Shown piece after piece: positions 37,414 through 64,000 of a DNA stretch of 64,000 bases. A program made the position numbers and the translations under genes. The DNA comes from Microbacterium sp. VKM Ac-2923 (GTDB lineage Bacteria > Actinomycetota > Actinomycetes > Actinomycetales > Microbacteriaceae): the NCBI RefSeq assembly GCF_022815605.1, contig NZ_JALGRP010000008.1:62001-126000 (forward strand), given 5' to 3'. The notes beneath the pieces were generated by a model, which saw only the letters and a list, made by a program, of their open reading frames with translations, was not told where the DNA came from and ran no database searches. Position 1 is the first letter of the stretch. Every line of letters begins with the position of its first letter.

Positions 37414-37569
37414 GGACCGGGACGGTGCGTGCGGTCGGCGTCATGGGGGCGTGACCGTGTCGGAACGGTCCGCATGATGCGGTCATCCTTTGTTCACGCT
37501 AACATCGGGCAACCCTCACCGCGGACGGTCCGATGCCCGCGGGCGAGGCATCCCTCTCGAAGGACGACG

Positions 37570-54190: not shown

Positions 54191-55273
54191 TCAGCGCGCC
54201 TTGGGCGCGAACACCGCCGCCACGATACGGGCGATCAGGTTGAAGATGACGACGAGGACGACCAGCAGGAATGCCGCACCCCAGGCGTTGGCCTGCGATG
54301 CGTCGATGTCTTGCCCGGGGAAGCTGTACGCGGTGTACGCCATGACGGGGAGGGTCTGCATGGGCCCCTCGAACGGGTTGGCGTTGAAGTTGTCGGTGAA
54401 GCTCGCCGCGATGAAGATCGGCGCGGTCTCACCCACCACGCGGGCCACGGCGAGCACGACACCGGTGATGATGCCGGAGGCGGCGGTGCGCAGCACGACC
54501 TTGATGATCGTCGCCGAGCGCGGCACGCCCAGGGCGAGCGAGGCCTCGCGCAGGTCGGCCGGCACCAGACGCAGCATCTCCTCGGTGGAGCGGATCACGA
54601 TCGGGATCATGAGCACGCACAGGGCGATGGATGCCGAGAACCCGCTGAACGCCTTGGGTCCGACGACGAGGCTGAACAGCGAGAAGGCGAACAGACCGGC
54701 GACGATGGAGGGGATACCCGTCATGACGTCGACGAGGAAGGTGATTGTCCGGCGGAGCGGGTTGCTCGGCTGGGCGTACTCGACGAGGTAGACCGCCGCG
54801 AGGACGCCGACCGGCACCGAGATGAGTGCGGCGATGCCCGTGATGATCAGCGTTCCCGCGACGGCCTGCCACGCACCCGGGGTCGCGACGACTTCGAGTG
54901 TGTTCGGGTCGAACGCGGTGCCGCCCACCTGCGTGATGAACTGCAGGTTGACCACGGCGAGGCCCTTGGACACCACCGTGTACAGCGTGGAGACGAGAGG
55001 TGCCAACGCCAGCAGGAAGGCCGCCGTGACCAGACCGCGCACGACGCGGTCGACGGCCTTGCGGCGGTTCTCGACGATCGACGACCCCAGGCCGATGGCG
55101 ATCAGGTAGATCACGGCCGTCAGGATCAGCCACGCCGCGAGGTTGAAGCCGCCCATGAGCACCTGCACGCCGGCGATGACGACCGCGACGCCCGCGAGCA
55201 GCGCGGGCTCGATGTAACGGGGGAGCTGGCCGCTGGTGAGGGCCAGGGGAGCGGAGGGTGCGGTGACGGTCAT
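54191..55273 (-). CDS. pstA: Phosphate ABC transporter permease
   Basis: A 360-residue permease with about seven helices, longer than E. coli PstA (296) through an N-terminal extension containing two extra hydrophobic segments (about 20-60). The EAA-type loop LREASLALGVPRSATIIKVV contacts PstB. Its ATG overlaps the pstC stop by four bases. Confidence 0.95.
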   Translation of the reverse strand: MTVTAPSAPLALTSGQLPRYIEPALLAGVAVVIAGVQVLMGGFNLAAWLILTAVIYLIAIGLGSSIVENRRKAVDRVVRGLVTAAFLLALAPLVSTLYTVVSKGLAVVNLQFITQVGGTAFDPNTLEVVATPGAWQAVAGTLIITGIAALISVPVGVLAAVYLVEYAQPSNPLRRTITFLVDVMTGIPSIVAGLFAFSLFSLVVGPKAFSGFSASIALCVLMIPIVIRSTEEMLRLVPADLREASLALGVPRSATIIKVVLRTAASGIITGVVLAVARVVGETAPIFIAASFTDNFNANPFEGPMQTLPVMAYTAYSFPGQDIDASQANAWGAAFLLVVLVVIFNLIARIVAAVFAPKAR

Positions 55274-56295
55274 GAGCGCTTGCCCTTCTTGCGACCCTTG
55301 GCGCCGGGGCCCGTCGCGCCGATGATGTAGCGGGCGAACATGTTCACCGCGAGCGATACGACGAACAGCATGAGGCCGGTACCGATGAGGGCCGAACGCT
55401 GCAGGTCGGTGGCGATGGGGAAGTTCAGCGCGATGTTGGCCGCGATGGTCTGCGAGTTGTACCCGTCGGTGAGCATCAGCACCGAGTAGATGAGGCTGGG
55501 GGAGATGATCAGCGCGATGGCCATCGTCTCGCCGAGCGCGCGGCCGAGGCCGAGGAGCGTTGCCGAGACCATGCCGCTGCGGGCGTAGGGGAACACCGAC
55601 AGGCGGATCATCTCCCAGCGCGTGGCGCCGAGGGCCAGCGCCGCTTCCTCGTGCAGACGGGGCGTCTGGAGGAAGATCTCACGGGTGATCGAGGTGACGA
55701 TCGGCAGGATCATCACCGCGAGCACGACGCCACCGGTCAGCATGGTCGAACCGGTGCTGGAGACAGGGCCGTTGAAGAGCGGGATCCAGCCGAGGTACTG
55801 GTTGAGGAACTCCCCGACCGGCAGCAGCAGGGGGCGCATGACGATGATGCCCCACAGGCCGAACACGATCGAGGGGACGGCCGCCAGCAGATCGACGACG
55901 TACCCCAGTGCCCCGGCGATGCGGCGCGGCGCGTAGTGCGAGATGAACAGCGCGATGCCGATGGCCACCGGGGTACCGATGATCATGGCAATGAACGCGG
56001 CCCAGATGCTGCCGAAAAGCAGCGGACCCACGTACTCCCAGAAGTTCGCCCAGTTGCCGGTGCGGCTCTGGTAGCCGGCGAGGTCGCCTTCGGCCCAGTT
56101 GCCGGTGATGGCGGGGAGTCCGCGGATGATCAGGAAGATCGCCACACCCGCCAGGATGATCATGATCGAAACGGCGGCGGTGGTCGACAGGCCCAGGAAG
56201 ACGGTGTCGCCGACGCGGCGCTTGCCGACGATGCTCGCGCGGGGCGGGGTCGGTGAGACCGGCGAGGTCTCTTGCTCGGCGACGGTGTCAGTCAC
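55270..56295 (-). CDS. pstC: Phosphate ABC transporter permease
   Basis: A 341-residue permease with six to seven helices. The EAA-type loop is LHEEAALALGATRWEMIRLS. A 30-residue polar N-terminus (TVAEQETSPVSPTPPRASIV) precedes the first helix. GTG 56295 is chosen; GTG 56316 would add seven residues. An 11-codon ORF with a better ribosome site begins at 56323 and overlaps this start. Confidence 0.93.
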   Translation of the reverse strand: MTDTVAEQETSPVSPTPPRASIVGKRRVGDTVFLGLSTTAAVSIMIILAGVAIFLIIRGLPAITGNWAEGDLAGYQSRTGNWANFWEYVGPLLFGSIWAAFIAMIIGTPVAIGIALFISHYAPRRIAGALGYVVDLLAAVPSIVFGLWGIIVMRPLLLPVGEFLNQYLGWIPLFNGPVSSTGSTMLTGGVVLAVMILPIVTSITREIFLQTPRLHEEAALALGATRWEMIRLSVFPYARSGMVSATLLGLGRALGETMAIALIISPSLIYSVLMLTDGYNSQTIAANIALNFPIATDLQRSALIGTGLMLFVVSLAVNMFARYIIGATGPGAKGRKKGKRS

Positions 56296-56323
56296 GGGGG
56301 ACCTCACGCTCGGCACGGGTCAT
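56288..56323 (-). CDS. Possible 11-residue leader ORF overlapping the pstC start
   Basis: ATG 56323 has GAGGAG seven bases upstream and encodes MTRAEREVPRD, ending in a TGA that overlaps the pstC GTG in another frame. It may feed ribosomes to pstC by reinitiation. It could also be chance. Confidence 0.3.
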   Translation of the reverse strand: MTRAEREVPRD

Positions 56324-56402
56324 GGGTGCTCCTCGATCGGGTGGCTCAGTGAGGATTCGGCTCAGCGGAGCGTTCGACGTGGTCGACCGTTCCGATCAGC
56401 CC

Positions 56403-56434
56403 GGCCCGACCCGCACGAGAGTGCGGGCCGGGCC
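56403..56434 (-). terminator. Hairpin between pstS and pstC
   Basis: GGCCCGACCCGCAC and GTGCGGGCCGGGCC pair over 14 bp with one mismatch and loop GAGA, 17 bases beyond the pstS stop. It probably attenuates read-through so the binding protein is made in excess. Confidence 0.75.
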
Positions 56435-56450
56435 GAGTGGTAAGAGATGT

Positions 56451-57575
56451 TTACTTGATCGCTGCGAGCGTCTCGGCGGCAGCCTCGAGCACCGAGTCGG
56501 GCAGCGGAGCGGAGCCGGCGTTCTTGGCCGCGACCTGCTGGCCGAGGGTGCTGGTGACGAAGCCGAGGTACGACTTCACAAGCTCGGCCTGGGCGGCGTC
56601 CTTGAACGTCGAGCAGGTGATGGCGTACGACACGAGCGGGATCGGGTAGGAGTCGGCGGTCAGCTTCGAGTAGTCGAACTTCTTCGACAGGTCGCCCTCG
56701 ATGCCGTTGCTGGCGTCGACCGCGGCGGCCTCGAACGTCGCGGTGACGGCCTCGGCGCTGTAGGGGACGGCGGTGCCGTCGGTGACGATCGCGGCCGCGT
56801 TCAGGTCGCCGATGGCGGAGTGGTCGGCGTAGCCGATGGTGCCGGAGCCGGCCTTGACGGCCTCGACGACGCCCGAGCCACCCTTCTGCTTCGAGACGTT
56901 GCCCTCGATCGGCCAGTCCTTGCCCGCGGGAGCGGTCCAGACCGACGACTGGGTGGCCGCGAGGTAGTTGGTGAGGTTCTGCGTGGTGCCCGAGCCGTCC
57001 GAACGAGCGACGGTGGTGATGGTGCCGGCGGGGAGCGCGGTGCCGTTGTCGGCGGTGATGGCCGGGTCTGACCAGTCGGTGATCTGCAGCGCGAAGATCT
57101 TCGCGATCGTCTCACCCGAGAGCTTCAGGTCGGTGACGCCGGGGATGTTGAAGATGATGGCCACGCCGTCGAGGTAGACGGGGATGTTGACGCCACCCTC
57201 GGTGCACAGAGCCGCGGACTGCGCGGTCTGCTCGGCATTCAGGGGGGCGTCGGAGCCGGCGAAGTCGTACGCGCCGCTGAGGAAGTTGGTGACGCCACCG
57301 CCGGAGCCCTGCGACTTGTCGTAGTTGATGGTGACGCCCTTGGCCTGGGCGTTGTAGGCGCTGGTCCACGCGGCCTGCGCGTTGGACTGGGCGCTCGAGC
57401 CACCGGCGGTGATGGTGCCCGAGAGGTTGGGGTCGATCGTGAACGCCACGTCGGCGGAGGAGGGGGACTCCGAGGTGCCTGCGGGAGCGGAGCTGGAGGG
57501 ACCGGCGCAGCCGGCGAGCGTCAGGGAGGCCACGGCGGCCAGGGTGCCCAGCTGGGCGATTCGGGAGATCTTCAC
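56451..57575 (-). CDS. pstS: Phosphate-binding lipoprotein
   Basis: A 374-residue lipoprotein that delivers phosphate to PstCA. Signal peptide with lipobox LAGC (Cys near 25); phosphate-binding segments TITAGGSSAQSNAQAAW, DKSQGSGGGVTNFLSGAYDF, DAPLN and ARSDGSGTTQNLTNYL are intact. GTG 57575 has AAGGA about eight bases upstream; ATG 57593 would add six residues. The upstream region carries a PHO box. Confidence 0.95.
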   Translation of the reverse strand: MKISRIAQLGTLAAVASLTLAGCAGPSSSAPAGTSESPSSADVAFTIDPNLSGTITAGGSSAQSNAQAAWTSAYNAQAKGVTINYDKSQGSGGGVTNFLSGAYDFAGSDAPLNAEQTAQSAALCTEGGVNIPVYLDGVAIIFNIPGVTDLKLSGETIAKIFALQITDWSDPAITADNGTALPAGTITTVARSDGSGTTQNLTNYLAATQSSVWTAPAGKDWPIEGNVSKQKGGSGVVEAVKAGSGTIGYADHSAIGDLNAAAIVTDGTAVPYSAEAVTATFEAAAVDASNGIEGDLSKKFDYSKLTADSYPIPLVSYAITCSTFKDAAQAELVKSYLGFVTSTLGQQVAAKNAGSAPLPDSVLEAAAETLAAIK

Positions 57576-57643
57576 GGGGTGAATCCTTCGCATGTCGGGA
57601 ACAGGAACCCGGTGCAGGGTTCGCCGTGAACGGTAAACAAGGA

Positions 57644-57653
57644 CTCTTAAGAG
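57644..57653. promoter_or_regulatory. CTCTTAAGAG palindrome in the pstS-pls spacer
   Basis: A perfect 10-base palindrome centred on CTTAAG, similar to the ATTCTTAAGAAT element upstream of sigK. CTTAAG is a rare word in a genome of this GC content. A shared regulator is possible but unproven. Confidence 0.3.
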
Positions 57654-57662
57654 ACTGCGTTG

Positions 57663-57684
57663 CGGGGGTGAACGGGAGGTGAAC
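57663..57684 (-). promoter_or_regulatory. PHO box (PhoP direct repeats)
   Basis: On the minus strand two GTTCACC units lie exactly 11 bases apart (plus-strand GGTGAAC at 57667 and 57678), the actinobacterial PhoP-binding pattern. A further GTTTACCGTTCAC lies at 57626-57638. The spacer is shared with the divergent Pls-type synthetase gene. Confidence 0.75.
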
Positions 57685-57720
57685 CGGTGCGGCCTTTCCG
57701 GGGTGTTTCCCTGGGCGTTG

Positions 57721-57726
57721 TACTGT
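57721..57726 (+). promoter_or_regulatory. Probable -10 element (TACTGT) of the Pls-type gene
   Basis: TACTGT ends eight bases before GTG 57735. A single GTTCACC half-site (57725-57731) overlaps it. Confidence 0.45.
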
Positions 57727-57734
57727 TCACCCCC

Positions 57735-60700
57735 GTGACGACCCCCGCATCCGCACCGCAGGCTCCGCTCGATCGGACGACGGCCGCCCCGCCCGCCCGC
57801 ACCCTCATCGACATCCTGACCGATGTCGCCGCACGGCATCCCGAGGCGTCCGCCATCGACGACGGATCGGGTGCCCTGAGCTACCGCGAACTGCTGGCGC
57901 GCGTGTGGCGGACGGCTGCCGCCCTGCACGAGGCCGGCGTCCGCCGCGGCGACCGGGTCGGAGTGCGCATGCCGTCCGGCTCGAAGGAGCTGTACGTCTC
58001 GATCCTGGCGGTCATGGCGGCCGGCGCCGCCTACGTCCCGGTGGATGCCGACGACCCGGACGACCGTGCCCGCCTCGTGTTCGGCGAGGCCCGGGTGCGC
58101 GGCATCGTGGCGGGTGACGGCGAGTTCGTCGCACAGGGGCAGGATGCCGACCTCGTGCGCCTGTACGACGGGGCGGCGCCGCACCCGAGTACGAACGCCG
58201 TCCCGATCGTCGCACCGCCGACCGTCGACGACGACGCGTGGATCATCTTCACCTCGGGCTCGACCGGGGTGCCCAAGGGCGTCGCCGTCTCGCACCGTTC
58301 GGCCGCAGCGTTCGTCGACGCCGAGGCCCGCATCTTCCTTCCGCAGGAGCCGCTCGGCCCCGGCGACCGCGTGCTCGCCGGTCTCTCGGTGGCGTTCGAC
58401 GCCTCGTGCGAGGAGATGTGGCTCGCGTGGGGTCACGGGGCGTGCCTCGTTCCCGCGCCGCGCTCGCTCGTCCGCTCGGGTGAGGACCTCGCGCCGTGGT
58501 TGCTGCGTCAGGGCATCACGGTGGTGTCGACCGTCCCGACGCTCGCGGCGATGTGGCCGGCGGACTCGATCGAGAACGTGCGTCTGTTGATCTTCGGCGG
58601 CGAGGCGTGCCCGCCCGAGCTCGCCGCCCGTCTCGTCGCGGACGGACGTGAGGTGTGGAACACGTACGGCCCGACCGAGGCCACGGTGGTCGCCTGCGCC
58701 GCCCCGCTCGACGGCTCGCTGCCCGTGCGTATCGGGCTGCCGCTCGACGGATGGGCGCTGGCGGTGGTGGATGCCGAGGGGCTCCCCGTGGCGGAGGGGC
58801 AGGTGGGAGAGGTGATCATCGGCGGTGTGGGGCTCGCCCGCTACCTGGACCCTGCGAAGGACGCCGAGAAGTACGCCCCCATGCCGACCCTCGGCTGGGA
58901 ACGCGCGTACCGCTCCGGCGACCTCGTGCGCTTCGACCCGGAGGGACTGGTGTTCCAGGGCCGCGCCGACGACCAGGTCAAGGTCGGCGGTCGGCGCATC
59001 GAGCTCGGAGAGGTCGAGTCGGCTCTGCAGGACCTCCCCGGCGTCAGCGCGTCGACGGTGGCCGTACGCACCACCGAGGCCGGAGTGCCGGTGCTCGTCG
59101 GGTACCTCGTGATGGACGAGGGCGTCGACCTCGACCGGGGCGCCGCCCGTGCCCTGCTCTCCGAGCGCCTCCCGGCGGCGACGATCCCTCTGCTCGGGGT
59201 CGTCGACGAGTTGCCCGTCCGCACCTCCGGCAAGGTCGACCGCGCGGCGCTGCCGTGGCCGCTCCCCGGCGTCGATGCCCCCGCGGCGACCGACTTCTCG
59301 CCCGACGAGATGTGGTTGGCCGAGCAGTGGCAGGCCGTGCTCGGTCTGCCCGTCGCCGATCGCAAGGTCGATTTCTTCGACCTGGGTGGGGGCTCCCTGG
59401 CCGCCGCTCAGCTCGTCTCGCGCATCCGCGCGCGGGTGCCCGAGTTCTCGGTCGCCGACATCTACGACGTGCCGCGCCTGGGCGCGATGGCGAAGGCGCT
59501 CGGACCCCAGCTGGCCGACGGCCCGCCCGCGGAGTTCCACCGCGCAGAGCCCACGCCCCGCACGACGCAGTGGGCGCAGACGCTCCTCGGTGCTCCGCTG
59601 TTCATTCTCTCGGGTGTGCGCTGGCTGCTGTACGTGCTCACCGCATCCGCGATCCTGCACCTGGTTCCCGGCTTCGACGTGCTGCCGAGCGTGCCGTTGC
59701 CCGTTCTCGCGATCGGACTGCTGATCTTCGCGACGCCGTTCGGGCGCATGGCGATCGCCGTGGCATCCGCTCGTCTGCTGCTGTTGGACGTGCGCCCGGG
59801 CGACTACCCCCGCGGGGGATGGGTGCACATCCGGCTGTGGTTGGCGGAGCAGATCGCCGCCCAGGTGGATGCCGTGGGTCTGGCCGGTGCCCCCTGGGTG
59901 TCGTACTACGCCCGGGCTCTGGGCGCGCGGATCGGGCGGAACGTCGACCTGCACGCCCTTCCACCGGTCACCGGCATGCTCGAGGTGGGAGACGGCGCGT
60001 CGATCGAGCCGGAGGTCGACCTGACGGGCTACTGGATCGACGGCGATCTCGTCCGCATCGGCGAGGTGCGCATCGGGGCGGATGCCACGGTGGGCGCGCG
60101 CTCCACCCTGGCACCCGGCACGCGGATCGGTCGACGGGCCGAGATCGCCCCCGGATCCGCCGTGTTCGGTCGGGTCAAGGCCGACCAGTCGTGGGCGGGT
60201 TCTCCCGCGGTGCGCGTCGGTGGCACGGCGAAGGGCTGGCCGGGCGAGCGTCCCCCGGCGCCCACGCGATGGTTGTGGGCCTACGCCGCCTCCGCCGTCG
60301 TGCTCGCCCTGCTGCCGCTGGCGGCGTTCACGGTGGGCGGTCTCGTCGTCGCGCAGGGAATGCGTGGGGCCGACGACCTCGGACAGGCGACCGCCGCGGC
60401 CTTCGCCTGGCTCGTCCCCGCCGTCGCCGTCACGGGCGTGGTCTTCGCGGCATCCGTGGTGCTGCTCGTGCGCCTGCTCTCGATCGGCCTCGCCGAGGGA
60501 ACCCATCCGGTGCGCAGCCGCATCGCCTGGCAGGCGTGGACGATCGAACGACTTCTGGATGCCGCCCGCACGACCCTCTTCCCGCTCTACTCGTCGCTGT
60601 TCACCCCGGTGTGGCTGCGGATGCTGGGCGCGCGCGTCGGCCGCGACGTGGAGGCATCCACGGTGCTTCTCATCCCCTCCATGGCGCGGATCGAAGACGG

Positions 60701-61679
60701 CGCGTTCCTCGCCGACGACACCATGGTCGCCTCCTACGAACTGCGCGCCGGCTGGCTGCGGATCGGGCCGGTCCGCATCGGCAAGCGCGCGTTCCTCGGC
60801 AACTCCGGCATGGCCGCCCCCGGCCACCGCGTGCCGCGCGACGGACTGGTCGCGGTGCTGTCAGCGGCACCGGTCAAGGCGAAGGCCGGGTCGTCGTGGC
60901 TCGGATCGCCCGCGGTCCGGCTGCGGCGTCTGTCGGCCGCGGGTGACGAGTCGCGGACGTACCGGCCCACCGCGGGCTTGCGCTTCGCCCGTGCCCTGTG
61001 GGAGCTCTGCCGGTTCGTGCCGGTGGTGGTGACGTGCGGCATCGGCCTGGGCGTGCTGTTCGCGCTCGCCGCGCTGTGGGAGACCGTGGGGCCGGTCTGG
61101 ACGCTGCTGTCGTCCGGTCTCGTGCTACTGGCCGCCGGGGCTGTCGCGGCGGGCGTGTCGACCGCGGCCAAGTGGGCCATCGTCGGGGTGATCCGCGCGG
61201 GTGAGCAGCCCCTGTGGTCGAGCTTCGTGTGGCGTACCGAGGTGTCGGACACGTTCACCGAGATGGTCGCGGCGCCCTGGTTCGCGCGCGCCGCGGCGGG
61301 GACTCCCGCGCTCGCCGTGTGGCTGCGCACCCTCGGCGCGAAGATCGGTCGGGGGGTGTGGTGCGACAGTTATTGGCTGCCCGAGCCCGACTTGGTGACT
61401 TTGGGCGATGCGTCAACCGTCAACCGCGGATGCGTCGTTCAGACACATCTGTTCCATGATCGGATCATGAGCATGGACACCGTCGAGTTGGAACCCGGGT
61501 CGACCCTGGGTCCCCACAGCGTGGTGCTGCCGGCATCGACGCTCGGGGCGCACGCCACCGTGGGACCGGCGTCGCTGGTCATGCGCGGCGAGACCGTTCC
61601 GGTCGGCTCGCGGTGGAGCGGCAACCCCATCGGCCCCTGGCGTGCGGTGAAGGTGCGCGCCTACCAGTCGACGACGTGA
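57735..61679 (+). CDS. pls: Pls/PosA-type membrane NRPS (poly-lysine synthetase-like)
   Basis: A 1314-residue synthetase, close to the 1319 I recall for epsilon-poly-L-lysine synthetase. Adenylation domain (about 20-510): TSGSTGVPKG, NTYGPTEAT, YRSGDLVRF and SGKVDR with Lys500. Carrier domain (about 525-595): VDFFDLGGGSLAAAQ with the pantetheine Ser554. The remainder has three pairs of membrane helices, each followed by a left-handed-helix (hexapeptide) domain: GARIGRNVDL..., GARVGRDVEAS... and GAKIGRGVWCDS.... In Pls such tandem domains link amino acids iteratively by isopeptide bonds. Read against GrsA, the pocket is D222, A223, E226, S265, I286, G288, T310, V318, V319, K500, a lysine-like code. 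GTG 57735 is chosen; an M1 peptidase gene overlaps its stop. Confidence 0.88.
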   Translation: MTTPASAPQAPLDRTTAAPPARTLIDILTDVAARHPEASAIDDGSGALSYRELLARVWRTAAALHEAGVRRGDRVGVRMPSGSKELYVSILAVMAAGAAYVPVDADDPDDRARLVFGEARVRGIVAGDGEFVAQGQDADLVRLYDGAAPHPSTNAVPIVAPPTVDDDAWIIFTSGSTGVPKGVAVSHRSAAAFVDAEARIFLPQEPLGPGDRVLAGLSVAFDASCEEMWLAWGHGACLVPAPRSLVRSGEDLAPWLLRQGITVVSTVPTLAAMWPADSIENVRLLIFGGEACPPELAARLVADGREVWNTYGPTEATVVACAAPLDGSLPVRIGLPLDGWALAVVDAEGLPVAEGQVGEVIIGGVGLARYLDPAKDAEKYAPMPTLGWERAYRSGDLVRFDPEGLVFQGRADDQVKVGGRRIELGEVESALQDLPGVSASTVAVRTTEAGVPVLVGYLVMDEGVDLDRGAARALLSERLPAATIPLLGVVDELPVRTSGKVDRAALPWPLPGVDAPAATDFSPDEMWLAEQWQAVLGLPVADRKVDFFDLGGGSLAAAQLVSRIRARVPEFSVADIYDVPRLGAMAKALGPQLADGPPAEFHRAEPTPRTTQWAQTLLGAPLFILSGVRWLLYVLTASAILHLVPGFDVLPSVPLPVLAIGLLIFATPFGRMAIAVASARLLLLDVRPGDYPRGGWVHIRLWLAEQIAAQVDAVGLAGAPWVSYYARALGARIGRNVDLHALPPVTGMLEVGDGASIEPEVDLTGYWIDGDLVRIGEVRIGADATVGARSTLAPGTRIGRRAEIAPGSAVFGRVKADQSWAGSPAVRVGGTAKGWPGERPPAPTRWLWAYAASAVVLALLPLAAFTVGGLVVAQGMRGADDLGQATAAAFAWLVPAVAVTGVVFAASVVLLVRLLSIGLAEGTHPVRSRIAWQAWTIERLLDAARTTLFPLYSSLFTPVWLRMLGARVGRDVEASTVLLIPSMARIEDGAFLADDTMVASYELRAGWLRIGPVRIGKRAFLGNSGMAAPGHRVPRDGLVAVLSAAPVKAKAGSSWLGSPAVRLRRLSAAGDESRTYRPTAGLRFARALWELCRFVPVVVTCGIGLGVLFALAALWETVGPVWTLLSSGLVLLAAGAVAAGVSTAAKWAIVGVIRAGEQPLWSSFVWRTEVSDTFTEMVAAPWFARAAAGTPALAVWLRTLGAKIGRGVWCDSYWLPEPDLVTLGDASTVNRGCVVQTHLFHDRIMSMDTVELEPGSTLGPHSVVLPASTLGAHATVGPASLVMRGETVPVGSRWSGNPIGPWRAVKVRAYQSTT

Positions 61680-62974
61680 GCGGGACCGATCCGTACGCCC
61701 CGCAGAGCGGCGACGCGTCGTACGACGTGCGGTCGTACGACCTCGAGCTCGGCTACCGCGTTCGCACCAACCGCCTCGAGGGAACGGCGACCATCGTGGC
61801 GGTGGCGCGCGTCGCGCTGACGTCGTTCGCGCTCGATCTCGTGGGCCTGCGCACCTCGCGCGTCCGCGTCGATGGGGTGACGGCGCGTTTCTCGGCGGGC
61901 CCGCGCGTGGTGCGTGTCACGCCGCCGCGGCCGGTGGCGGCCGGTGAGGTGCTCGAGATCGAGGTGGTCTATGCGGGCGCTCCGGCCCCGCGGCGCTCGC
62001 GCTGGGGCGCGGTCGGATGGGAGGAGCTGACCGACGGCGCTCTGGTAGCAGGCCAGCCCATCGGCGCACCCACCTGGTTCCCCTGCAACGATCGACCGGA
62101 CAGCCGCGCGCGGATGCGCATGGAGATCACCGTCGACGACGGCTACACGGTCGCTGCGACCGGTGTCGCCGGAGCGACGACGCGGCGCGGCGGGCGAGCG
62201 ACGACGACGTTCACGTCCGATGTCCCGACCGCGACGTACCTCGCCGCCGTCCATGTGGGCCGCTATCGCACGCGTCCCCTCGCCGGCGGGGGAGTGGATG
62301 TCGTTCCGCCGGTCAGCGTCACGGCGCCCCCGGCACTCAGCGCCGCCGCCGATCGCGCGTTCGCGGCGGTCCCGCACATGCTGCGTGTTTTCGACCGACT
62401 CTTCGGCCCGTACCCGCAGGATGCGTGTTCGCTGGTCGTCACGGAGGATGAGCTCGAGATCCCGCTCGAAGCGCAGGGACTCGCCGTCTTCGGCATGAAC
62501 CATCTCGTGCCGGCGGCTCAGCGTCTGGTGGCGCACGAGTTGGCCCACCAGTGGTTCGGCAACAGCGTCGGGATCGCCCGTTGGTCCGATATCTGGTTGA
62601 ACGAGGGCTTCGCCTGCTACGCCGAGTGGCTGTGGTCGGACGCCTCGGGGAGCGTTCCCGTCGAGACCTGCGTCGCCGACCACTACGCCCGTCTCGCCGC
62701 CAAACCGCGCGACCTGCTACTGGTCGACCCGGGACCCGACGATATGTTCGACGACCGCGTCTACAAGCGCGGTGCGCTGACTCTCCACGCTCTTCGTCGG
62801 ACGCTGGGCGACCGGGCGTTCTTCGACCTGGTGCGGGGCTGGACGGCGCAGCACCGGCACGCACTCGTCACCACCGAGGACTTTCGCGCCGCCGTCGAGA
62901 ACGCGGGTGGACCGGATGCCGTGGCGGTGCTGTCGCGCTGGATCGACGGCGAAGCTCTGCCGCCGCGCCCCTGA
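61676..62974 (+). CDS. Short M1-family metallopeptidase, possible poly-lysine-degrading enzyme
   Basis: A 432-residue zinc peptidase. HELAH (287-291) and Glu310 in WLNEGFACYAEWLW give the HExxH-x18-E site. The N-terminal beta saddle (about 15-200) is present, but the helical C-terminal domain of PepN (about 850 residues) is missing. The usual G-x-M-E-N exopeptidase motif is replaced by PLEAQ (263-267). GTG 61676 overlaps the synthetase stop (GTGA), so the two are coupled. In polylysine-producing streptomycetes, as I recall, pls is followed by an M1 peptidase gene (pld) that trims the polymer, and that role is inferred here. No signal peptide is seen. Confidence 0.82.
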   Translation: MSGTDPYAPQSGDASYDVRSYDLELGYRVRTNRLEGTATIVAVARVALTSFALDLVGLRTSRVRVDGVTARFSAGPRVVRVTPPRPVAAGEVLEIEVVYAGAPAPRRSRWGAVGWEELTDGALVAGQPIGAPTWFPCNDRPDSRARMRMEITVDDGYTVAATGVAGATTRRGGRATTTFTSDVPTATYLAAVHVGRYRTRPLAGGGVDVVPPVSVTAPPALSAAADRAFAAVPHMLRVFDRLFGPYPQDACSLVVTEDELEIPLEAQGLAVFGMNHLVPAAQRLVAHELAHQWFGNSVGIARWSDIWLNEGFACYAEWLWSDASGSVPVETCVADHYARLAAKPRDLLLVDPGPDDMFDDRVYKRGALTLHALRRTLGDRAFFDLVRGWTAQHRHALVTTEDFRAAVENAGGPDAVAVLSRWIDGEALPPRP

Positions 62975-62996: not shown

Positions 62997-63779
62997 TCAC
63001 CCGTTCCAGCCGCGCACCCGGTGCACGACGAAGGACTTCGGGTACGAGCCTGCGGTGGCATCGACTTCGAAGATGTCGATCATGAGCGCCAGCGGATAAT
63101 CCGGAGCCTGCGCGATGCGTCGCACGACGACGCCCTCGCATCCGATGATCGTCTCGCCCTCGCCCCACACGGCCGTCCACGTGTGCGGGCGACCGGCGTC
63201 GAAGGGAAGCGAGACCTCAACCATGTCGGTCGCCAACCGGGGGTCGTGGTGCGCCTTGATTCCGCTGCGGGCGCGGGTTTCGATATCGGTGACCCCGTCG
63301 GCGTCGATCTCGAACAGGCAGATCTCGCCCGCATCGCGAGGCGACAGGTGCTCGGTCCCCACGAGCCACGCGGCGACCATGCATCCGCTGTCCCGGGTGG
63401 CCGACAGTCTGATGTCGACACGACCCCGGGTGGGGGCGAAGAGAAGCGACGTCGGCGCCTCCGTGCGTACCGTCAGATCGCCGCGGTGGCGGTGCATGCC
63501 GCGGTGCGATCCCTTCTCTCCCGCGAACAGCGCCGTCTGCAGGTTGGACACTCGCAGGGGAGCGTCCTCGGGTCGCCAGTGGCCTTGATCCGCGTCGATC
63601 CGGAGCCGGATGCCGTCGGCCACGGCATTCCACCGGGCCGCTGCCCGCTCGGCGTCGGTCCAGTGCGGCAGGTATGAGGTGATCCAGCGGGAGGGATCGG
63701 GGGTCCCCTCGGTGAAGTCGTCGTCCAGGTCGGCGGCACGCGATGGAAGAGGCGGGAGGGTGCCGTCCGGAAGGAGCAT
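62997..63779 (-). CDS. GH16-like lectin-fold protein with altered active site
   Basis: A 260-residue soluble protein with the concanavalin-like fold of GH16. WRPEDAPLRVSNLQTALF, RVDIRLSATRDSGCMVAAWL and HTWTAVWGEGETIIG fit the family. The catalytic E-x-D-x-x-E is seen as EICLFE, with the middle Asp changed to Cys, so hydrolysis is doubtful and glycan binding more likely. No signal peptide. ATG 63779 has GAAGGG just upstream. It is convergent with the M1 peptidase gene. The last 221 bases of the window hold no supported gene. Confidence 0.68.
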   Translation of the reverse strand: MLLPDGTLPPLPSRAADLDDDFTEGTPDPSRWITSYLPHWTDAERAAARWNAVADGIRLRIDADQGHWRPEDAPLRVSNLQTALFAGEKGSHRGMHRHRGDLTVRTEAPTSLLFAPTRGRVDIRLSATRDSGCMVAAWLVGTEHLSPRDAGEICLFEIDADGVTDIETRARSGIKAHHDPRLATDMVEVSLPFDAGRPHTWTAVWGEGETIIGCEGVVVRRIAQAPDYPLALMIDIFEVDATAGSYPKSFVVHRVRGWNG

Positions 63780-64000
63780 GCACCCTTCATAGTGCCTCTG
63801 CGCCCGGACGCCAGACGACGACGCGTCAGCACGCGGGATGCCAGGACGTCGGGTCGCCGGCGTGCGCGCGTGCCGGATGCCGGCGCGTTTGCATGTGTGC
63901 ATGCTAGCGACGACCTTCGACATCGAAGCTGGTCCTCGGGGCACTCGGGGAGGGCTGCGCGGTTCCTGGGGGTGGGGAGGAGGTGTCGGACGCGAGGGTC

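Follow-up and report, generated by a model that had tools for sequence, protein, structure and literature searches.

A probable pls–pldII-type operon for epsilon-poly-L-lysine in Microbacterium sp. VKM Ac-2923

Does a Microbacterium hold the genes to make epsilon-poly-L-lysine, together with an enzyme that degrades it? The question is raised by a locus of Microbacterium sp. VKM Ac-2923, found in a stretch of 64,000 nucleotides of contig NZ_JALGRP010000008.1 (the window), where a large gene for a non-ribosomal peptide synthetase (NRPS), here termed pls, is followed by a gene for an M1 metallopeptidase. We consider the locus very probably to be an operon of the pls–pldII type, for epsilon-poly-L-lysine and its M1 peptidase. 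As such it adds a further likely source of epsilon-polylysine, from a genus that is common and not filamentous, and its synthetase–peptidase pair is retained widely among the sampled actinobacteria.

Domain organisation and fold of the synthetase

The pls frame is open and complete from its GTG (57735) to a TGA ending at 61679, and can be lengthened at its 5′ end to another GTG at 57687. Above cut-off, Pfam finds AMP-binding (residues 30–369), PP-binding (527–589) and one hexapeptide stretch (778–810) in the product, the last being one of three such stretches; at an E-value of 0.001 only AMP-binding, PP-binding and hexapeptide families are matched, with no classical condensation or thioesterase domain. 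The C-terminal part is recognised by the NCBIfam profile TIGR02353 (Pls/PosA family non-ribosomal peptide synthetase), which covers residues 614–1299 with 707.7 bits against a cut-off of 423.1.

Features of the pls locus, with positions in the window
Feature	Position	Strand	Description	Basis
pls	57735–61679	+	epsilon-poly-L-lysine synthetase-type NRPS, 1314 aa, GTG start	translation; TIGR02353, 707.7 bits; 7wew, E 9.5e-188
Adenylation (A) domain	57822–59252	+	residues ~30–506, pocket DAESIGTVVK	Pfam; NCBIfam (several profiles reach residue 506); PDB alignment
Carrier (PP-binding) domain	59313–59501	+	residues 527–589, motif LGGGS	Pfam; motif read in translation
Pls/PosA terminal region	59574–61631	+	residues 614–1299, predicted (transmembrane hairpin + beta-helix) x3	TIGR02353; hydropathy; AlphaFold2; Foldseek
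M1 metallopeptidase gene	61676–62974	+	432 aa, GTG start, HELAH-x18-E, putative PldII counterpart, no N-terminal leader seen	Pfam; PDB; motif
pstS (context)	56451–57593	-	divergent from pls	named from sequence and pstC/pstA/pstB neighbours
PHO-box-like direct repeat	57667–57684	-	two 7-bp GTTCACC units 4 bp apart, toward pstS	consensus from PMC4415409 (partial text)

Hydropathy places three clusters of transmembrane-like segments in the terminal region, at about residues 617–678, 846–922 and 1090–1145, and does not settle the number of helices in each; a weak segment of the same kind at 85–104 lies within the A domain and is taken as spurious. Modelled with AlphaFold2 (pLDDT 81.3, pTM 0.85; input alignment of 26 sequences from the window and the loci described below), the C-terminal 709 residues form a helix hairpin followed by a beta-helix, three times over. 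The terminal domain of PosA has been modelled along the same lines, with hairpin and beta-helix (PMC10522769, partial text). A first-pass annotation of this DNA had read the layout as adenylation, carrier and three units of helices with a hexapeptide-like domain, and the Pfam and TIGR02353 matches, the hydropathy clusters and the three-repeat model all bear this out. Its call for a profile search with the Pls domains is answered by the TIGR02353 score, while its six helices correspond to the three hydropathy clusters and three modelled hairpins.

Foldseek gives the terminal-region model partial matches to hexapeptide acyltransferases (best E 1.4e-4), with no full-length match among the best 50 matches listed, and sequence comparison with the PDB yields weak hexapeptide matches only (best E 7e-4). 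The possibility that the domains after the carrier match nothing but unrelated acyltransferases, which the first-pass annotation had allowed for, is contradicted by TIGR02353 scoring over its cut-off; that score, with the three-repeat model, also led us to reject a hexapeptide resemblance arising by chance. By their sequence scores the family assignments of both the synthetase and the peptidase are beyond chance, because TIGR02353 reaches 707.7 bits and Peptidase_M1 94.1 bits (cut-off 27.7), the latter with the zinc motif HExxHx18E intact as HELAH-x18-E.

The substrate-binding pocket

In the PDB the A domain is matched best by the epsilon-poly-L-lysine synthase 7wew (E 9.5e-188, 628 bits), and in the alignment of the two all ten pocket residues, DAESIGTVVK, are the same. 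The pocket positions were set by GrsA numbering and agree with the published PosA pocket (PMC10522769, partial text). The same ten residues are present in 81 of 81 rows, made up of the window and 80 named loci, the best 80 of at least 593 found with peptide patterns that include CEEMWLAW. These rows were picked for their closeness, and CEEMWLAW itself spans one pocket residue, so this biased count is no test of family-wide fixity.

Ala at pocket position 2 marks the lysine enzymes, the equivalent residue being Met in PosA, Phe in PDAP-type enzymes and Gly in the beta-lysine enzyme, which has the pocket DGESISVVNK (PMC10522769, partial text). Since the window pocket is identical to that of 7wew, with Ala at position 2, lysine is expected as the substrate, and L-lysine is the likely substrate of the window A domain. 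The Pls/PosA family does include enzymes for other diamino acids (PMC10522769, partial text), and the window enzyme might polymerise one of these, namely ornithine, diaminobutyrate, diaminopropionate or beta-lysine. Against this stand the pocket of 7wew, with Ala rather than Met, Phe or Gly at position 2, and the gene context, a peptidase operon being reported for lysine enzymes whereas the three other synthetases compared sit in a different context (PMC8117764). All four substrates were rejected on the pocket residues, and we regard another diamino acid as highly improbable.

PosA, the delta-poly-L-ornithine synthetase of Acinetobacter (8g95; PMC10522769, partial text), shares the family architecture and differs in its pocket, DMEHNGTVSK (same source), in its single-gene operon and in its far lower A-domain score of 207 bits against 628 for 7wew. 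The two scores are not over equal lengths; that of 8g95 is lowered because its chain is limited to the core of the domain.

The coupled M1 peptidase

The start of the peptidase gene overlaps the stop of pls, as the first-pass annotation had noticed, by 4 nt, with GTGA common to both; translation of the peptidase is probably coupled to that of pls through this overlap.

Two further sets of loci were compared. The 40 genus loci (L159–L198) are every second full-length match in the genus, G044 having been dropped for its short open frame and G084 replacing the genome of the strain itself; at least four of them (L163, L172, L177, which is L033, and L187) come from the same genomes as named loci, among which three pairs are themselves more than 97% identical and one locus (L053) has a stop inside its pls translation. 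The eight comparison loci (L151–L158) are taken to be mostly Streptomyces, with L151–L153 (genus g30) near S. albulus. The A domains of L151–L155 and L158 are 79–93% identical to 7wew, L156 is of the same genus g30, and L157 is of another family. For L151–L153 the identity is 91–93%, and their M1 gene, like that of the window, overlaps pls by 4 nt. This overlap fits the published description of S. albulus, where pldII lies behind pls and is translationally coupled to it (PMC9223678, partial text), and thus upholds the first-pass comparison with polylysine-producing Streptomyces. Because an M1 gene comes after pls in the S. albulus-like genomes, we infer that PldII is itself an M1 enzyme. The window peptidase is filed as a leaderless counterpart of PldII, a designation that stops short of proven PldII.

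Could the peptidase be an unrelated aminopeptidase that happens to lie downstream? Its closest relatives in the PDB are the M1 zinc metalloproteases 6a8z (nearest) and 6iff, which are not named polylysine hydrolases, and it is without the leader found in Streptomyces-type loci. An incidental neighbour is nevertheless at odds with the constancy of the pair: every locus compared has an M1 homologue behind pls (80 of 80 named, 40 of 40 genus and 8 of 8 comparison loci), and in 76 of the named ones it lies at most 220 nt from where the pls match ends, the exceptions being three Tsukamurella loci and one Williamsia locus. It is equally at odds with the overlap of exactly 4 nt, which 85 of the 128 loci share (81 of 124 once the four duplicates are removed), and with the far greater distance of the other M1 matches in the strain's own genome, which show 33% and 24% identity. 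A chance neighbour is therefore very unlikely.

By analogy with characterised relatives, the A domain would activate L-lysine with ATP and load it on to the carrier domain, and the membrane-bound terminal domain would link one lysine to the next by way of the epsilon-amino group and release epsilon-poly-L-lysine, with no classical condensation or thioesterase domain involved. Export of the polymer is likewise assumed from these relatives, and the overlapping M1 metallopeptidase would hydrolyse the polymer, for self-protection or turnover.

Predicted location of the peptidase

A Tat-like (twin-arginine-like) leader with a hydrophobic stretch precedes the M1 enzyme in six of the eight comparison loci (L151–L155 and L158), with 12-residue hydropathy of 1.64–1.93. 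The window peptidase, by contrast, begins VSGTDPYAPQSGD, and its highest 12-residue hydropathy near the N-terminus is -0.32. With start codons picked by rule, and hence predicted, and about the first 40 residues covered, no leader was seen in 122 loci, that is, the 120 named and genus loci, L156 and L157; the highest value in the leader region among these is 1.09, in L075. S. albulus PldII is reported to act outside the membrane (PMC9223678, partial text), a location that the window peptidase does not match by leader prediction. No literature on pldII with a signal peptide was found.

As no leader is seen, cytosolic action may be inferred for the Microbacterium peptidase, unlike S. albulus PldII, provided that the start codon is correctly chosen and that no unusual secretion route is used. 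If the coupled peptidase works in the cytosol in hosts other than Streptomyces, the view of PldII as a self-protection enzyme on the outside would not extend to them.

Comparison with known systems

Pls and PldII of S. albulus provide the closest functional model, sharing domain layout and pocket residues with the window. The pst genes that neighbour the window locus were not found in L151–L158, where about 1.6–2 kb upstream was covered. Nearer in host kind is Corynebacterium variabile, whose Pls belongs to the same family together with homologues from Microbacterium, Brevibacterium and other coryneform bacteria (PMC8117764; PMC12067966, partial text). In C. variabile, pls stands in an operon with a peptidase gene, and its Pls makes epsilon-polylysine when expressed in S. 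coelicolor (PMC8117764). The C. variabile enzyme is thus verified by heterologous expression, whereas the window gene is known from sequence.

Several observations weigh against the reading as a pls–pldII-type operon for epsilon-poly-L-lysine. The identity between the window Pls and the S. albulus-like Pls of L151–L153 is only 52–53%, and the missing peptidase leader departs from the Streptomyces arrangement. C. variabile itself made no polymer in the culture tested (PMC8117764), and because of this the window pls gene, too, may be silent. The cytosolic location has its own counter-indication, since residues 38–58 of the peptidase are hydrophobic (mean hydropathy 1.93). This stretch falls within the Peptidase_M1_N match (20–189), and hydropathy at its position reaches at least 1.6 in only 9 of 81 M1 proteins (median 0.94); for these two reasons it is read as belonging to the domain core rather than as an anchor.

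The locus is an ordinary one, in that the synthetase–peptidase arrangement is familiar from Streptomyces and has been reported from Microbacterium genomes as well. Published work covers Pls homologues in Microbacterium (PMC8117764) and epsilon-polylysine clusters in two species of the genus, Microbacterium canaveralium and M. jepli (PMC12067966, partial text), and 84 of 149 genus genomes exceed the TIGR02353 cut-off; on these grounds no novelty is claimed, and the first-pass description of a little-described source has to be given up.

Distribution and phylogeny

The 84 genomes include that of the strain itself and three partial matches at contig ends. At an E-value of 0.001 the same profile matches 148 of the 149, those under the cut-off being mostly weak hexapeptide matches. 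Across the phylum 10 of 198 genomes are over the cut-off, and among 14 control genomes only Corynebacterium glutamicum is, the genus search likewise giving one control genome over it; a search of 296 class genomes with the 7wew A domain (E of 1e-150 or better) found 64.

The Microbacterium-like host suggested by the first-pass annotation fits the named loci closest to the window, which are Microbacterium. A tree built from 30 terminal domains pairs the window with Microbacterium sp. RU1D (support 100/100) inside a set of 12 Microbacteriaceae rows (99/97), and sets two non-Pls members of TIGR02353 apart on a branch with 100/100. Of the phylogeny that the first-pass annotation proposed against Pls and PosA, this tree covers Pls, with which the window groups, its only non-Pls rows being these two, which have no assigned substrate and are not PosA; the A-domain scores (628 bits for Pls, 207 for PosA) likewise place the window with Pls. 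The pattern would fit vertical inheritance of pls over a long period, with losses along the way.

The pstS–pls intergenic region

Upstream of pls lies the phosphate-uptake operon pstSCAB, transcribed divergently, with a pstS–pls gap of about 140 bp (57594–57734). The direct repeat within this gap matches the description of a PHO box (PMC4415409, partial text). In single-base shuffles of the intergenic stretch the motif arose in 3 of 20000, and a second strict match occurs in the window at 37481, far from pst. Among the 40 genus loci, 21 have a divergent pstS upstream of pls, 12 have it no more than 350 bp away, and in 19 it was not found within the stretch scanned. The strict pattern occurs in 11 of the 12 closely spaced loci, as a conserved block amid variable flanks, the twelfth (L198) being one base short of a match.

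A shared intergenic region of this kind, together with the peptidase's missing leader, could mean that PhoP controls pls along with pst, and that the polymer is mainly intracellular or phosphate-responsive and turned over in the cytosol, with no secreted antimicrobial. The window and the 11 close-spaced loci are consistent with this, but the repeat is read toward pstS, and seven of the nine genus loci with pstS more than 800 bp from pls carry the motif near pstS, 742–994 bp upstream of pls. Nor does the wider sampling favour it: pstS was not found in the 19 genus loci above, only 6 of 80 named loci carry the motif in the 400 bp before pls (including L090, where pst genes were not found), and all eight comparison loci lack the motif over the 1500 bp scanned. 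The repeat may serve pstS alone, and an intracellular or phosphate-responsive polymer in place of a secreted one is, on balance, unlikely.

A bolder version, confined to one Microbacterium lineage, would have pls wired to phosphate starvation through a PHO box that it has in common with pstS, and the peptidase intracellular; the polycation would then take part in the phosphate or polyphosphate physiology of the cell, or in a defence timed by phosphate in which the polymer is recycled in the cytosol, as opposed to the secreted preservative of Streptomyces. This we hold to be decidedly unlikely. A pls–pldII-type operon for epsilon-poly-L-lysine stays the preferred reading, and phosphate control of pls is put forward as a hypothesis. 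No proposal of phosphate or PhoP control of epsilon-polylysine was found in the literature, judged mostly from less than full text; in the partial text of PMC9195005, PhoP appears only in the reference list. The shared promoter region does suggest what might switch on such a gene, which yielded no polymer in the C. variabile culture tested, namely phosphate starvation.

Variation beside pls

Two very different versions of pstS–pstC–pstA occupy the same place beside pls, one in the window (54191–57593) and the other in L085, L171, L190 and L198. Between L085 and the window, identity is 94% for Pls, 91% for the peptidase and 90% for PstB, against 43% for PstS, 55% for PstC and 49% for PstA, which looks like partial replacement of the pst operon. 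In L031 all these proteins are more than 90% identical to those of the window save the peptidase, at 84%. Where the pstS–pls gap is longer, in L033, L037, L159, L163 and L177, an Ala/Lys-rich, histone H1-like frame lies in between, with an end motif that presumably resembles a SAP or Rho-N domain.

Downstream, a 315-aa frame on the minus strand (62997–63944) is convergent with the peptidase gene; neither Pfam nor NCBIfam matches it at E 0.001, and no match was reported in the 80 named loci at E 1e-10. Elsewhere in the same genome, outside the window, contig C35 carries a large NRPS region at about 92.5–129 kb, with one frame of 8505 aa bearing six AMP-binding matches and another of 2112 aa bearing two.

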